Part shown: piece by piece, positions 10,442 to 16,751 of the stretch
Layout of the letters: each line of letters opens with the position of its first letter
How positions within the stretch are numbered: the first letter of the stretch is position 1
Assembly: GCF_010668395.1 (NCBI RefSeq)
Contig: NZ_WUEY01000001.1
Span: 558,001-622,000 of the forward strand
DNA length: 64,000 nucleotides
Reading direction: 5' to 3'
Source: Martinezella lusitana
GTDB lineage: Bacteria; Pseudomonadota; Alphaproteobacteria; Rhizobiales; Rhizobiaceae
Position numbers and translations under genes: made by a program
The notes under the pieces: generated by a model
Database searches by the model: none
Told to the model about the DNA's origin: nothing
Seen by the model: the letters and a program-made list of their open reading frames with translations, nothing else

Positions 10442-11243
10442 CGGTTGCCGGCTGGCGCTCGACGCGCGCACGCTCCTCCGGCTGGAAGGGCGAGACATGG
10501 ACGCCGGTGTCGTCGATCATGACGGCGCTGCCATCGGGAATTTCGCGCCAGGCATCGACGTCGTCGTTCAACGGTTCGGAAACCAGGCAATTGCCTGACC
10601 CGACGGGCGAGGCATAGAGCGTCGGCGCCTTGCGGTCTGTCGCGTATCGTATGGCGTAGAGCGACTTGCCGTCGGAAAAGGCGGCGGTGAAGCGCACCAG
10701 CACCGATCCGGTCAGATGGAGCGAAAGACCTTCGACGAAGCCGATGGTTTCCGCCATAGCGGCAATCGGATTGGCCGCCATGCCGAATTGCAGAGCGAGC
10801 AGGAAAAGAAGTTCCGAATCGGTCGTGCCACTGCGGGCATGGAAGAGCCCGTCGTCGAGCATGGCTTCCATCGGTCGGCGCAGGCGGTCGAAATTGGAAA
10901 TCTGGCCATTGTGCTGGAACGACCAGTTCTCGAAGACGAAGGGATGGCAGTTGTCGCGTCGCGTGCCGCCGCCGGTGGCCGCGCGGACATGGGCGAGGAA
11001 GAGCGGCGAGCGGATCTGCCGCGCCAGGCTCTTGAGATTGCAGTCGGACCAGGCCGGCAGGATATCGCGATAGCGGCCGGGCTCCGGCCGGTCGCCGTAC
11101 CAGGCGATGCCGAAGCCGTCGCCGTTGGTCGCCGTCTTGGCGCGCGTGGCGCAATGGGATTGCTCGATCAGGGAGTGGGCGGGCGAAGACACGAGCTCCT
11201 CCAGATAGAGGGGGTCTCCACGATAGGCTGCCCAGCGACACAT
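10428..11243 (-). CDS. Class II glutamine amidotransferase (YafJ-like)
   Basis: The 271-residue protein begins Met-Cys-Arg-Trp. After Met removal, Cys becomes the N-terminal nucleophile of class II amidotransferases. Gly-Asp-Gly-Phe-Gly near residue 41, HVRAATGG near residue 85 and HNGQISNF near residue 110 are the glutamine-site motifs. There is no synthetase domain, so the acceptor is unknown; the family includes E. coli YafJ and EgtC-like proteins. The start at 11243 is fixed by the catalytic Cys2. It overlaps the coaBC end by 14 bases on the opposite strand. Confidence 0.88.
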   Translation of the reverse strand: MCRWAAYRGDPLYLEELVSSPAHSLIEQSHCATRAKTATNGDGFGIAWYGDRPEPGRYRDILPAWSDCNLKSLARQIRSPLFLAHVRAATGGGTRRDNCHPFVFENWSFQHNGQISNFDRLRRPMEAMLDDGLFHARSGTTDSELLFLLALQFGMAANPIAAMAETIGFVEGLSLHLTGSVLVRFTAAFSDGKSLYAIRYATDRKAPTLYASPVGSGNCLVSEPLNDDVDAWREIPDGSAVMIDDTGVHVSPFQPEERARVERQPATAIPA

Positions 11244-11510
11244 GCGTCTTTCACTCCGATTTCCCGCTGTCTTCCAGTCCCGCGGGAGAATGGCAAATCT
11301 TGGACGATTGTTTATGCGGAATGGGTAATAAAGTCTTAATTTTCCATCCCGCAGCGCGCAAAATGACAGATATGCGACGCTTCGTCCGATCACGTTTGAC
11401 ATCGCAGTATTTTCTTCGTGAGCCCGCAAGGACAGGGCCTTGCGCACAGATATGGCAAAGCCGAGCATTTCGCTGCGACAAGAAGTGTGAAACTTCCTGA
11501 CGTCGAAGCT
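11244..11510. other. Intergenic region upstream of the amidotransferase gene
   Basis: No gene is supported here. The AT-rich stretch 11290-11350 is the likely promoter region of the leftward amidotransferase gene. Short frames on both strands lack ribosome binding sites and recognisable products. Confidence 0.4.
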
Positions 11511-11538
11511 CTTGCATCGAGTCGAATTTGAGCTACGT
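11511..11538 (+). promoter_or_regulatory. Candidate sigma-70 promoter of the structured RNA
   Basis: CTTGCA at 11511 and CTACGT at 11533 are separated by 16 bases and resemble the alphaproteobacterial CTTGAC / CTATAT pattern. They would start a transcript about 20-30 bases before the AAGGAAGGTG element. Weak evidence on its own. Confidence 0.3.
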
Positions 11539-11576
11539 TTATCTTGTCTGAAACGTAACGAAAGGAAGGTGATCCA

Positions 11577-11651
11577 ATGTCTAGTGAGATTTCGGTCTTT
11601 GTATACGGCATGGAAATGGTCGTGAACGTTGCGAGGCAGCCCTCGCTCTGA
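11577..11651 (+). CDS. 24-residue ORF inside the structured RNA
   Basis: ATG 11577 follows an AAGGAAGGTG ribosome binding site with good spacing and runs to TGA 11649-11651. The peptide begins MSSEISVFVYGM and ends NVARQPSL. The binding site is complementary to CACCTTCC just after the stop codon, so translation may be blocked by folding and relieved by an event that opens the helix. The ORF is too short to class by family and may be a leader peptide, or chance within an RNA gene. Confidence 0.4.
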   Translation: MSSEISVFVYGMEMVVNVARQPSL

Positions 11652-11708
11652 TCAACACCTTCCCGAAGCGTTTACCGCTTCAGGCCAGTTACGGGCCAAA
11701 ACTCATGG

Positions 11709-11733
11709 GGGGTCGCTTAAGGCGGCCCCTTTT
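11709..11733 (+). terminator. Intrinsic terminator of the structured RNA
   Basis: GGGGTCGC and GCGGCCCC form an 8-bp stem with a 5-base loop, followed by TTTT. It separates the structured RNA from otsB. Confidence 0.7.
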
Positions 11734-11854
11734 GCATTCCTAGAGTCCGTGGCCGCCAATATGCCGGCGGCTCCAGAGGAGCGCCGCTCATCCTCTCCAT
11801 GGCAATTTCGTTTTTTTCCTTGCCGAACGGGAAGAGCGCCTTAACTACCCCTGC

Positions 11855-12649
11855 ATGTCTTCTCAGGAAAAGCCCGAGCAGGGTGACGCCAAACCGAGGC
11901 CGCTGAACGAACCGGCACTCACGGCACTCTCCTTGTATCCCCAGGATTGGGCCCTGTTCCTCGATATCGACGGGACCCTGCTCGATCTTGCCGAACGGCC
12001 GGAGGCGATCGTCGTACCCGACTATCTGCCCGGCGCGCTTCATGCGCTCTCCCGCCAGCTCGGCGGCGCCCTGGCTCTGGTGACCGGTCGCGCCATCGAG
12101 TTCGTCGATCCGCTCTTTGCCCCTTTCCGCTTTCCCGTCGCCGGCCTGCATGGCGCGGAGCGGCGCGATGCGGGCGGAAGACTGCGGCGCGCGCATGTTC
12201 CACCCGCCTTCCAGGAGATGAAGCAGGTCATCCGGCGCGAAGCTCTGGCCTGGCCCGGCGCCATCGTCGAGGACAAGGGGGCCGCGGTCGCGGTCCACTT
12301 TCGGCATGCGCCCGCAAACGAGGCCGAAATCGGCGAAGCCATGCAGCGCCATCTGGAGGACGCGGGGCCCGACTGGAGCCTTCAGCGCGGCAAGATGGTG
12401 ATTGAAATCTGCCCTGCCCACGCCAGCAAGGGACATGCCGTCGAGGCATTCCTTGCCGAAGCGCCCTTCGAGGGGCGACGTCCGATCGCAATCGGCGACG
12501 ACGTGACCGACGAGACGATGTTCGCCGCCGCCAACCGTCTCGGGGGCCAATCCGTGCGCATCGGCGATGCCAATGGAAAAACGCTGGCGCGTGCATCCAT
12601 TGGCTCGCCTGCGCGTTTAAGAGACGTGCTGGGAACGCTCGTCAAGTAA
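11855..12649 (+). CDS. otsB: Trehalose-6-phosphate phosphatase
   Basis: OtsB removes phosphate from trehalose-6-phosphate to give trehalose, an osmoprotectant. The 264-residue protein is a HAD phosphatase: FLDIDGTLLDL near residue 35 holds the nucleophile Asp, LVTGR near residue 75 is motif II, and the C-terminal AIGDDVTDETMF is motif IV. It lies about 50 bases before otsA, so the two are probably cotranscribed. No clear ribosome binding site precedes ATG 11855, which is unusual and leaves the exact start slightly open. Confidence 0.93.
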   Translation: MSSQEKPEQGDAKPRPLNEPALTALSLYPQDWALFLDIDGTLLDLAERPEAIVVPDYLPGALHALSRQLGGALALVTGRAIEFVDPLFAPFRFPVAGLHGAERRDAGGRLRRAHVPPAFQEMKQVIRREALAWPGAIVEDKGAAVAVHFRHAPANEAEIGEAMQRHLEDAGPDWSLQRGKMVIEICPAHASKGHAVEAFLAEAPFEGRRPIAIGDDVTDETMFAAANRLGGQSVRIGDANGKTLARASIGSPARLRDVLGTLVK

Positions 12650-12698
12650 TCCGTCGATCAGTTCAGCGCCCGCCCAGCCTTCTCGAAAGGAAGAATCC

Positions 12699-14075
12699 GT
12701 GAGTCGTCTCATCATTGTTTCCAATCGCGTTTCCGTGCCCGATCACAAGGGCGCTGCAGCCGCCGGCGGCCTTGCCGTGGCGCTGCAGGCCGCCCTTGCC
12801 GAGCGTGGCGGCATCTGGATGGGCTGGTCCGGCAAATCCAGCGGCGAGGCCGAACCGGAGCCGCTGGAGATGACGCAGGACGGCAATATCACCTACGCCC
12901 TGACCGACCTGACGCAGACCGATGTCGAAGAATACTATCAGGGCTTTGCCAACCGCGTGCTCTGGCCGATCTGCCACTACAGGCTCGACCTTGCCGAATA
13001 TGCGCGCAAGGAAATGACCGGCTATTTCCGCGTCAACCGCTTTTTTGCCCATCGGCTCGCGCCATTGATCGAGCCGGACGACATCATCTGGGTGCATGAC
13101 TATCATCTCATTCCGCTGGCGGCGGAACTGCGGCAGATGGGACTGAAGAACCGGATCGGCTTCTTCCTGCACATTCCCTGGCCGCCGGCCGACGTCGTGC
13201 GGGCCATGCCGGTGCATGAGGAAATCATGCGCGGCCTTTCCTCCTATGATCTGCTCGGCTTCCAGACCGACCATGACCTTGAGAACTTCGCGGGTTGCCT
13301 GAAGCGCGAGGGCATGGGCATCGAGAAGAGCCCCGGACATTTCAGTGCTCACGGCCACGATTTCCGCGGCGGCGCCTATTCGATCGGCATCGAAACGGCG
13401 GCCTTCGCCGCCTTCGCCCGCAAGGCCGCATCGCACAGCATGGTTCACAAGGCGCGGAAGAGCATCGAGGGCCGCGACCTCATTCTCGGCGTCGACCGGC
13501 TCGACTACTCCAAGGGCATCACGCAGCGCATCGACGCCTTCGAGCGTTTCATCACCAACAACCCCGCCCACCAGCGCAGCGTCACCTATCTGCAGATCAC
13601 CCCGAAATCGCGCTCGGAAGTGCCGGAATACGAGGCCATGCAGCATGCCGTCGCCGAGCAGGCCGGCCGGGTCAACGGCGCCATCGGCACGGTCGACTGG
13701 GTGCCGATCCGCTATATCAACCGCTCGATCAGCCGGCCGATCCTGGCCGGTCTCTACAGGCTCGCCAAGGTTGGCCTGGTGACGCCGCTGCGCGACGGCA
13801 TGAACCTCGTCGCCAAGGAATATGTCGCGGCGCAGGATCCGGACGATCCCGGCGTGCTGGTGCTGTCGCAGTTTGCCGGCGCGGCGCGCAAGCTGCACGG
13901 CGCCCTGCTGGTCAATCCCTATGACGTCGATGGGACCGCCAACGCGTTGGCCCGCGCCGTCAACATGCCGCTGCAGGAGCGGCAGGAACGCTGGCGCGGC
14001 ATGATGGACTATCTGCTGGAGCACGACGTCCTGCACTGGTGCGAGACGTTTCTCGCAGATCTCACGGCGAAGTAG
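12699..14075 (+). CDS. otsA: Alpha,alpha-trehalose-phosphate synthase (UDP-forming)
   Basis: OtsA joins UDP-glucose and glucose-6-phosphate into trehalose-6-phosphate in the cytoplasm. The 458-residue GT20 protein shows the [11 protein letters not shown] motif near residue 130, [10 protein letters not shown] soon after, [11 protein letters not shown] near residue 264, and [15 protein letters not shown] (catalytic loop) near residue 365. The start is GTG 12699 after AAAGGAAG. The N-terminal glycine loop is [11 protein letters not shown]. It ends 14 bases inside the opposite LysR gene. Confidence 0.95.
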
Positions 14076-14988
14076 GCGATTGCGGCCGGGCGATGGCCGC
14101 TTCCGCCAACAGCCATTGAGCCAGGCGCTCCGCGTGCGGGCTCGGCGCTGCCGGCGGCAGGAGCCAGTAGCCGCGCTCCGGTGCCTCCAGCATCGGACCT
14201 GCCGTCACCAGCGTACGTGCCGTGAGAAGCGAATCGACGAGCCCCATCCAGCCGAGCGCCACGCCTTGCTCGCCGAGCGCTGCCTGCACGACCAGGGAAT
14301 AGGTATTGAAGCGCAGGTCGCCATGGCCGGCATAGCTGTCGCGGGCAATGCCGAATGTCCCAAGATAGCTTTCCCAGTCGAACCACGGCGACGACATCTC
14401 GGAATCGAGATGGATGAGCGTGGCGCGCGCCAGCTGCGATGGGTCGATGAACGGGCCATGGCGCTCGGCAAAACCCCTGGTGCAGATCGGCACGACCTTT
14501 TCCGGCAACAGCAACGTTGCTCCTGGACCGAATTCGTCTCGCGCCCCGAAGAAAACGGCAATGTCGCCGCCTTCCGGCGCGCCACGATCCAGCCGTTGCG
14601 TGGCGACGATCTGGATATCCACTTCCGGATGGAGCAGCCGGAACGCATGCATGCGGGGGATTAGCCAGAGAGCGGAGAAGGCATAGTCCGTTCTGAGTCG
14701 GACCGAGGGGCGCGCCGCCTCGACGCGGAAGCTGCGCACCAGCGTATCGACGCCCCCGACCGCCTTCTCGACGATCTCGAACAGGCGCCGGCCCTCCGGC
14801 GAGAGCTGGACGCCGCGATGCTGGCGGCGAAACAGGGGCACGCCCATCTGCTCTTCGATGCGGCGGATCTGATAACTGACGGCCGGTTGGGTCAAGCCGA
14901 GCGCCGATGCGGCGGCAGACAGGCTGCCGGAGCGACCCACCTCCAGAAAGATCCGCAGCCAGCCAAGATCGACAACACGTTCAGCCAT
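14062..14988 (-). CDS. LysR family regulator, choline-sulfate utilisation type
   Basis: The 308-residue LysR protein has a helix-turn-helix near residues 20-45 (SLSAAASALGLTQPAVSYQI). It lies divergent from betC, the arrangement of the putative choline-sulfate utilisation regulators. It is inferred to sense choline or choline-O-sulfate and activate betC. No effector data can be read from sequence. Its 3' end overlaps otsA by 14 bases. Confidence 0.82.
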   Translation of the reverse strand: MAERVVDLGWLRIFLEVGRSGSLSAAASALGLTQPAVSYQIRRIEEQMGVPLFRRQHRGVQLSPEGRRLFEIVEKAVGGVDTLVRSFRVEAARPSVRLRTDYAFSALWLIPRMHAFRLLHPEVDIQIVATQRLDRGAPEGGDIAVFFGARDEFGPGATLLLPEKVVPICTRGFAERHGPFIDPSQLARATLIHLDSEMSSPWFDWESYLGTFGIARDSYAGHGDLRFNTYSLVVQAALGEQGVALGWMGLVDSLLTARTLVTAGPMLEAPERGYWLLPPAAPSPHAERLAQWLLAEAAIARPQSPTSP

Positions 14989-15087
14989 AAAATTTCCTTT
15001 TGGCAGCCATCGAAAAATGCCTGCTTCACAGCGCGAACTCTAGTGATGTTCAATAAAATAATGCAATAGCAAGAGGGGGCTTTCATC

Positions 15088-15216
15088 ATGCGCATGTCTG
15101 CAATGGGTCCGCTGGCCGACGGCGACGGCCGCAAGACCATCCGCATGCCGGACGCCTTGACGCCCTGGCCCGCCGGCGTCACCACTATGCACGGCAAAGC
15201 CGCCATCGACCTCTGA
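15088..15216 (+). CDS. Candidate 42-residue small protein upstream of betC
   Basis: ATG 15088 follows a strong AGAGGGGG ribosome binding site, and the frame closes with TGA 20 bases before betC. The peptide (starts MRMSAMGPLADGD) has no signal or membrane segment and resembles no family known to me. It could be a leader peptide of betC, a remnant, or non-coding. Confidence 0.3.
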   Translation: MRMSAMGPLADGDGRKTIRMPDALTPWPAGVTTMHGKAAIDL

Positions 15217-15236
15217 TCTCCAAGGAAAACCATCCC

Positions 15237-16751
15237 ATGTCCCGCCCGAATATCCTCATCCTCATGGTCGATCAGTTCAACGGGACGCTGTTTCCCGACG
15301 GCCCGGCCGATTTCCTGCATGCGCCGGTCCTGAAGGCTCTGGCGAAGCGCTCGGTACGCTTTGCCAACAGCTATACGGCAAGCCCGCTCTGCGCGCCGGC
15401 GCGGGCCTCCTTCATGTCCGGACAGCTGCCGAGCCGCACGCGCGTCTACGACAACGCGGCGGAATTCTCCTCCGACATCCCGACCTTCGCCCATCACCTG
15501 CGCGCCGCCGGCTACCAGACGGCGCTGTCGGGCAAGATGCATTTCGTCGGCCCGGACCAGCTGCACGGCTTCGAGGAGCGGCTGACGACCGACATCTATC
15601 CCGCCGATTTCGGCTGGACGCCCGACTATACGAAGCCTGGCGAGCGCATCGACTGGTGGTATCACAATCTCGGCTCGGTGACCGGGGCCGGCACCGCCGA
15701 GATCACCAACCAGATGGAATATGACGACGAGGTCGCCTATCACGCCGTCCGCAAGCTTTACGATCTTTCCCGCGGGCAGGACGAGCGGCCCTGGTGCCTG
15801 ACGGTCAGCTTCACGCATCCGCACGACCCTTATGTCGCACGCCGCCGCTTCTGGGATCTCTATGAGGATTGCCCGGCGCTCGACCCGCAGGTTGGCGAAA
15901 TTCCCTTCGATCAGCAGGACCCGCATTCGCAACGGCTGATGAAAGCGTGCGATCACACCGCCTTCGATATCACCCCGGAGCAGATCCGCCGGGCACGGCG
16001 CGGCTATTTCGCCAATATCTCCTATGTCGACGAAAAGATCGGCGAGATTCTCGAAACGCTCGAGCGCGGCCGCATGGCCGACAACACCATCATCCTCTTC
16101 GTTTCGGACCATGGCGACATGCTCGGCGAGCGCGGCCTCTGGTTCAAGATGAACTTCTTCGAAGGCTCCGCCCGCGTGCCGCTGATGATATCGGCCCCCG
16201 GCTGGCAGCCGAAGCGGATCGACCAGCCGGTCTCGACGCTCGACGTGACGCCGACGCTGGCGGCGCTTGCCGGCATCGACATCGCATCGCTGCGACGCTG
16301 GACCGACGGCGAGGATTTGGGGCCTCTGGCTCTCGGCACAGGAAGCCGCAGCCCGGTGCCGATGGAATACGCCGCCGAAGGCTCCGAAGCGCCGCTCGTG
16401 GGCCTGCGCGACGGCCGTTACAAGCTGACCCTTTGCGAGAAGGACCCGCCCATGCTCTTCGACATCGAACAGGATCCGAAGGAGCTGACCAATCTGGCTG
16501 GCGACCCGGCCCATGCCGAAACCCTGCGCCGGCTGACGGCGCAGGCCAAGGAGCGCTGGAACCTCGAAAGCTTCGACGCCGCCGTGCGCGAGAGCCAGGC
16601 GCGGCGGTGGGTCGTCTACACGGCCCTGCGCAACGGTGCCTACTATCCCTGGGACTATCAGCCGCTGCAGAAAGCCTCGGAGCGGTACATGCGCAACCAC
16701 ATGGACCTCAACGTGCTGGAGGAGAACCAGCGTTTTCCGCGAGGCGAATAG
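15237..16751 (+). CDS. betC: Choline sulfatase
   Basis: BetC hydrolyses choline-O-sulfate to choline and sulfate in the cytoplasm, feeding glycine betaine synthesis or choline catabolism. The 504-residue protein has the sulfatase signature CAPARASFMSGQ near residue 54, where Cys is converted to formylglycine; NILILMVDQFNG with the first metal Asp near residue 11; and VSDHGDMLGERG near residue 291. The C-terminal tail is typical of choline sulfatases. It stands alone here rather than in a betICBA operon. Confidence 0.93.
   Translation: MSRPNILILMVDQFNGTLFPDGPADFLHAPVLKALAKRSVRFANSYTASPLCAPARASFMSGQLPSRTRVYDNAAEFSSDIPTFAHHLRAAGYQTALSGKMHFVGPDQLHGFEERLTTDIYPADFGWTPDYTKPGERIDWWYHNLGSVTGAGTAEITNQMEYDDEVAYHAVRKLYDLSRGQDERPWCLTVSFTHPHDPYVARRRFWDLYEDCPALDPQVGEIPFDQQDPHSQRLMKACDHTAFDITPEQIRRARRGYFANISYVDEKIGEILETLERGRMADNTIILFVSDHGDMLGERGLWFKMNFFEGSARVPLMISAPGWQPKRIDQPVSTLDVTPTLAALAGIDIASLRRWTDGEDLGPLALGTGSRSPVPMEYAAEGSEAPLVGLRDGRYKLTLCEKDPPMLFDIEQDPKELTNLAGDPAHAETLRRLTAQAKERWNLESFDAAVRESQARRWVVYTALRNGAYYPWDYQPLQKASERYMRNHMDLNVLEENQRFPRGE

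Follow-up and report, generated by a model that had tools for sequence, protein, structure and literature searches.

A candidate translation-gated small RNA gene with a short open reading frame in Martinezella lusitana and other Alphaproteobacteria

Layout and predicted fold of the locus

The window analysed was a stretch of 64,000 nt from Martinezella lusitana (assembly GCF_010668395.1, contig NZ_WUEY01000001.1, positions 558,001 to 622,000), and all coordinates given below refer to it. A compact unit was located on its forward strand at 11511-11733, composed of a promoter-like end, a Shine-Dalgarno (SD) sequence, a 24-codon open reading frame (ORF), the sequence CACCTTCC after the stop codon, two hairpins and a terminator. 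Downstream, the stretch 11855-16751 carries otsB and otsA; next come a LysR gene, which matches TIGR03418 (choline-sulfate regulator), and a sulfatase-like ORF recognised by eye (15237-16751). This stretch is a possible osmoprotectant cluster.

The promoter-like element (11511-11539) consists of CTTGCA (11511-11516), a 16-nt spacer and CTACGTT (11533-11539), and its CTTG and TAC.TT columns are conserved in an alignment of 29 loci from the genus. It was not detected by a strict promoter scan of 11000-12300, for which the consensus was of the E. coli type; we take it to resemble an alphaproteobacterial sigma-70 promoter. An extended SD, GAAAGGAAGGTGATCCA, was identified at 11560-11576 from the sequence itself, its complementarity to the 16S rRNA tail and the Rhizobiaceae alignment. 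The ORF (11577-11651, ATG...TGA; MSSEISVFVYGMEMVVNVARQPSL) begins directly after it, with start, length and stop kept among relatives and an unconstrained peptide. Within the ORF, the segment 11631-11646 (encoding ARQPS) forms a hairpin, GCGAGG-CAGC-CCTCGC, which is a consensus helix of 45 Rhizobiaceae units.

The first-pass annotation had described an 8-bp pairing that encloses the SD and the ORF, and this was recovered in the nested fold of 11541-11735: GGAAGGTG (11564-11571), the 5′ arm of what we term the SD-closing helix, pairs with the anti-SD, 16S-tail-like CACCTTCC (11656-11663), all eight pairs having a probability of 0.98 or more. The hairpins and terminator noted 3′ of the ORF were likewise found, as GAAGCG-TTTAC-CGCTTC (11665-11681), GGCC-AGTTACG-GGCC (11683-11697) and an intrinsic terminator with a GGGGTCGC stem and TTTT tail (11707-11733), with the otsB start (11855) about 120 bases further on. 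The terminator was recognised from sequence, fold and compensatory A-U to G-C changes in its stem (9/45 Rhizobiaceae sequences), and was missed by a strict terminator scan of 11000-12300. A further, long-range helix (P1) was identified by covariation across 48 clusters, with its 5′ arm GTGAGATTT in codons 3-6 (11584-11592) and its 3′ arm AAAACTCAT directly 5′ of the terminator (11698-11706), the latter placed by covariation and fold analysis. Overall, the fold of 11511-11735 was more stable than 200 of 200 dinucleotide shuffles (z −3.0).

Part of the SD, AGGTGATCCA (11567-11576), can pair with the 16S 3′ tail UGGAUCACCU, the reverse complement of that tail being GAAAGGAGGTGATCCA. Among ten genomes queried, the tail could be read in one (G503, of the same order), as GGCTGGATCACCTCCTTTCT, and it is also contained in a 39-mer in the available part of the oligonucleotide table of a Sinorhizobium meliloti YbeY paper (PMC6943124). 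Neither the tail pattern nor RF00177 matched a 16S gene in the window's own genome or in two relatives. In the RF00177 control a 16S match was obtained in 9 of 14 control genomes and in none of G000, G001 and G018, from whose assemblies the rRNA seems to be missing or to have been withheld. The SD form of Rhizobiaceae has one extra A and its partner CACCTTCC a matching extra T, the Rhodobacterales-type partner being CCACCTCC.

Conservation and relation to known RNAs

One match each was obtained in 36 of 37 genomes of the genus, and a pattern search found a 23- or 24-codon ORF in 29 of the 30 genus loci first read; L030 escaped the ORF pattern yet carries the unit. Among Rhizobiaceae, 45 of 47 units were aligned, with L082 and L142 excluded for automatic ends that ran long. 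The SD arm was invariant in these 45 units and the post-stop CCTTCC formed an island of 91-100% column identity among flanking columns of mostly 33-78%. Of the six pairs of the consensus SD helix, five were kept in 45/45 sequences and the sixth in 41/45; the changes were G-U only and one-sided. Because the SD arm hardly varies, the SD helix lacks two-sided covariation, and it is its conservation in Rhizobiaceae (the CCTTCC island and the SD pairs) that raises it above chance. The compensatory changes that had been proposed as a check were found in a helix other than the one named, the named SD helix showing one-sided G-U changes only.

The family extends well beyond the genus. The 5′ motif AAAGGARGTGATCCANTGNC was present in 21 of 289 genomes of the class, its reversed pattern in none. 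Of the 396 order genomes, 148 contained the pattern AGGN{1,2}GGTGATCCANTGTC, that is, an SD complementary to the 16S tail followed by NTG-TC, and none contained its reverse; the pattern was single-copy in all matched order genomes but one. At the level of the phylum it matched 17 of 160 genomes, all 17 among the 52 from the class, and none of the 108 outside it. In 28 hand-picked genomes that lack the exact motif, a form with one or two mismatches, mostly ...GATCCGATGTC, occurred in 16 (reversed control, 2/28); an ORF and terminator were visible by eye at 15 of 17 such places, the exceptions being L213, the start of a longer frame, and L224, not a clear unit by eye. Two motif places were seen in G545 (exact motif) and G072 (with mismatches), nearly all other genomes having one.

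A motif scan of titled genomes gave at least 118 stretches, 80 of them listed, and the family among these listed matches spans Rhizobium, Sinorhizobium/Ensifer, Agrobacterium, Bradyrhizobium, Methylobacterium, Ruegeria and Brevundimonas. The listed matches also include contigs titled as SAR92 (L109), Nitrospinota (L123) and Gemmatimonadetes (L053) MAGs, which may reflect chance, mis-binning or transfer. A unit with a terminator was found at 163 of 167 loci, with the stop preceding the terminator in 161 of the 163 and a median start-to-terminator distance of 127 nt (10th-90th percentile, 107-138); the same unit finder, run at random positions with a narrower span, matched 15 of 192. Clusters used throughout share ancestry, and the clusterings differ between analyses (43, 29 and 48 clusters). 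At L102 (Azospirillum sp. B21), L135 and L150, a super-SD with a ATGTCTCATGG start precedes a frame of 57-59 codons whose N-terminal start is signal-peptide-like, possibly a start site captured by a small secreted protein.

No Rfam family reached its cut-off anywhere in the 64-kb window. The unit matched RF01867 (CC2171, a Caulobacter sRNA) at 25.7 bits (E 0.016), short of the gathering cut-off of 75 bits; of 11 genus loci, 8 scored 23-29 bits and 3 gave no match at E ≤ 0.5, and the cut-off was passed by 10 of 20 family loci from other genera. A Rhizobiaceae model (R1) was built from the 45 aligned units, L066 among them. At E ≤ 0.01 it aligned over its full length to 61 of 72 loci. All 10 RF01867-positive loci were recovered end to end, nine of them within the same threshold (E from 5e-8 to 0.005) and L058 just outside it, at 0.013. 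These scores are partly by construction because all searched loci had been chosen for the 5′ motif. Shared with RF01867 are the 5′ block CGAAAGG-AGGUGAUCCA-NUGUCU and the end terminator, and its consensus pairs CAUuGuC with GaCaAUG, the same long-range helix as P1; pairing of codons 3-5 with the pre-terminator bases was found in our family by covariation over 48 clusters. RF01867 is typed "Gene; sRNA", and no long SD:anti-SD helix is seen in its Rfam consensus as printed. The window unit is thus a diverged relative of RF01867 and not a member by Rfam's rule, so that the first-pass remark that no known family was recognised holds with respect to the cut-off and fails with respect to kinship.

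In the accessible literature, which includes few subscription papers, RF01867 appeared as no more than an annotation in PMC5596092 and as one of the Rfam 15 families with improved structure in the available part of PMC11701678; the 5′ motif sequence was not found in the literature searched, most subscription papers lying outside it. According to the available text of PMC5596092, RNA-seq of Mesorhizobium huakuii 7653R yielded a 215-nt product, MH_s33, for which the authors found a match to RF01867 and which is not among the candidates marked there for Northern blotting. A unit of the same build as the window's was seen in two genomes (L216, L217) of one genus of the same family, and may be compared with MH_s33, which, set beside the family by description, is likely an expressed relative of it. 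The available portion of PMC4117421 reports that two formerly predicted Caulobacter ncRNAs are actually translated.

Other known RNAs were also compared. The dual-function attenuator sRNA rnTrpL/RcsR1 of the rhizobium Sinorhizobium is likewise small and has a short ORF, of 14 residues; by the accessible accounts, however, it is leaderless, derived from the trp attenuator and encoded at a different locus, and it was rejected as the identity of the unit given its transcription from the trp attenuator RNA position. SmelC671 and SmelC023 (available part of PMC3927594) were considered as identities and set aside, no Rfam family being at its cut-off in the window, and an sR32 match at 14406-14488, below cut-off, was taken as chance. 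Extended SDs that pair with 16S rRNA close to the start have been described in Staphylococcus aureus (PMC13009471); as far as the available text goes, they occur there in many mRNAs, whereas here a single gene in each genome is concerned, and closing helices are predicted for it.

Two predicted helices over the start region

Covariation tied ORF codons 2-8 to the bases just 5′ of the terminator. Across 48 clusters the arms of P1 paired better with their own partners than with permuted ones (z −9.6; 0 of 20,000 permutations as good), and this held within types, for 24 MSS/N clusters (z −6.6, p ≤ 5e-5) and for 20 VSH clusters (z −3.4, p 5e-4). The short core alone gave z −6.7 (p 0.006 and 0.011 within the two main types), and in four clusters of other types the signal was p 0.04 for the helix and p 0.29, not significant, for the core alone. 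Examples of exchanged pairings are GUGAG/CUCAC, CAUUGUC/GACAAUG and CACCG/CGGUG. In the window, P1 comprises 5+3 pairs with one G-U and one mismatch; it is absent from the nested ensemble (probability 0), and imposing it takes 7.5 kcal/mol (cluster median, 5.4).

In a duplex test, the SD found a partner within the body of its own unit above shuffles at p < 0.05 in 14 of 42 clusters (Fisher 1.8e-11), and the best partner often resembled the 16S tail (TGGAGCAGCCT.C, CTGGATC...GCCTC). For the window alone, SD-to-body complementarity was within the shuffle range (p 0.13). Class-wide nested folding gave a mean SD pairing of 0.68, against 0.66 for shuffled bodies (p 0.36); because nested folds thus match shuffles, good support for SD closure is limited to Rhizobiaceae and to the duplex test. 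In 68 of 71 units the SD partner is located between the two P1 arms, so that the SD helix and P1 would cross; from sequence, we infer that they would form either a pseudoknot or two alternative states.

Readings of the unit

The results are consistent with a structured, ORF-bearing small RNA gene that has a predicted closed SD and is conserved among relatives, as the first-pass annotation had in part supposed. The reading we prefer, at about even confidence, is that this self-contained gene of an alphaproteobacterial family would encode an RNA that acts in trans and is gated by translation, two crossing helices being predicted to close its start.

An unlikely alternative is a sensor or buffer of ribosome supply, in which the near-perfect complement of the 16S tail would bind free 30S subunits and the RNA would report or soak up initiation capacity, with no pairing to a particular mRNA. 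The 16S complement is the feature common to the class-wide matches, the gene is single-copy in nearly all matched genomes and has no fixed neighbour, and of the six AGGTGATCCNNTG copies in the genome of the window, that of this unit alone reads AGGTGATCCAATG, all of which would suit such a job. One small transcript, however, is unlikely to titrate ribosomes unless it is very abundant, and P1 and the kept stop codon would require a further reason.

The treatment of start and stop codons bears on whether the ORF is used at all. Among 193 distinct units, starts were GTG (112), ATG (79) and TTG (2). In frame 0 the median stop position fell within 21-26 codons for 21 of 29 clusters and within 13-31 codons for 25 of them, while the other frames had a stop at 13-31 codons in 10/29 and 3/29 clusters. 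Openness of frame 0 was not above that of frame 2 (Wilcoxon p 0.42) and weakly above that of frame 1 (p 0.04), so the signal of the ORF is its tight stop position. Stops were recounted in units picked without an ORF-length filter, by an inner word or by GGAAGGTG. In this way 26/26 Rhodobacterales-type units (inner-word pick) ended after 18 codons (TAG 14, TAA 7, TGA 5), 48/48 units with GGAAGGTG after 23 or 24 codons (TGA 25, TAA 22, TAG 1) and, also without the length filter, 10/10 Bradyrhizobium-type units after 14 codons. This apparent selection on start and stop, read from sequence comparison, points to translation of the ORF. It makes distinctly improbable an ordinary base-pairing sRNA with an incidental start codon and ORF, whose CCTTCC/CACCTTCC segment would pair with the SDs of other mRNAs: such an RNA would fit the sRNA type given to RF01867, the anti-SD motifs known in rhizobial sRNAs from the available text of PMC7143759 and the unconstrained peptide (pN/pS about 1), but not the interchange of TAG, TGA and TAA at a fixed codon in the 26/26 and 48/48 units, nor the absence of CTG starts (0/193) and the tight stop position across clusters.

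Selection on the peptide was not detected in the three larger families, where pN/pS was 0.99 (46 Rhizobiaceae sequences), 1.03 (30 Rhodobacterales-type sequences) and 0.94 (29 VSH/VSN/VSD-type sequences, one from Rhizobiaceae), although the sets had been chosen by peptide features or length, which biases them toward likeness. Seven Bradyrhizobium-type sequences gave 1.30 on few changes, and shifted frames as a rule were not higher than frame 0. Conservation through amino-acid coding alone, which would have undercut the structural interpretation, is thus contradicted by a pN/pS of about 1. As ORF length and stop are kept all the same, what seems to count is that the ORF is translated, and not which peptide results. 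That the 23-24-residue peptide is the functional product therefore receives little credence from us; the kept start, stop and length and the similarity of peptides within the genus speak for it, while the pN/pS of 0.94-1.03, the unlikeness of peptides between families and the contribution of the pairing segments to what residue likeness there is speak against it.

The neighbouring genes vary. In 47 Rhizobiaceae loci including the window, the gene 3′ of the unit was otsB-otsA in 12, a GntR gene in 24 and neither in 11, and an EgtC-like gene lay 5′ of the unit in 35. A hit to the trehalose genes was also obtained at L012, outside the 47-locus set owing to an altered peptide end, and in Rhizobium sp. 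JAB6 (L126) nearly the same unit is followed by a trehalose-phosphatase gene. Neighbours identified at other loci include a queuosine precursor transporter, RNase R, a CysA-like ABC ATPase and a quinone oxidoreductase. At loci without otsBA and with GntR (e.g. L013, L016, L021, L026), a near-perfect palindrome, TCATAAAGTCATCAGATGACTTTATGA, was observed 3′ of the unit and is likely the operator of the adjoining GntR regulator. From the varied neighbours it follows that the unit is an independent gene, standing before otsBA in some Rhizobium by happenstance. A cis leader or thermosensor of otsBA, the link to trehalose synthesis proposed in the first-pass annotation, was accordingly rejected as scarcely credible: in the window otsB does begin some 120 bases 3′ of the unit, and otsBA is next in 12/47 Rhizobiaceae loci, but the position before otsBA is not conserved, with GntR or other genes in the remaining 35/47 and unrelated neighbours in other families, and the unit has promoter- and terminator-like ends of its own.

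For the preferred translation-gated RNA, the following sequence of events is proposed. Since the SD is predicted to be folded shut and the peptide drifts, the RNA likely works through being translated. Its start region would be closed by the crossing SD helix and P1, and would open when the 16S tail of a ribosome prevails over the tail copy carried by the RNA itself. A 30S subunit or translating ribosome would then break both helices, altering the fold, the stability or the segments exposed, so that translation, not the peptide, would set the fold of the RNA and with it the action in trans. The RNA would in the end affect other transcripts or the supply of ribosomes, a trans output being suggested because neighbours are not conserved and the peptide is without selection; ribosome supply and SD-bearing mRNAs would be the first candidate targets.

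More tentatively, and with less confidence than in gating by translation as such, the family may be a class-wide riboregulator that reads the ribosome itself. Bearing the complement of the 16S tail together with an internal copy of the tail itself, such an RNA would stage a contest at its start between the ribosome and its own mimic, with the crossing, covarying helix lying over the first codons. Translation of a meaningless ORF of fixed length would be the switch, and the refolded RNA would act in trans.

The comparison ties RF01867 to a family found across much of Alphaproteobacteria and offers a logic for it, in which an ORF would be kept for its translation, not its peptide, behind a start that matches the 16S tail over at least 10 bases. 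If this is true, the cell would couple RNA regulation to free ribosomes.
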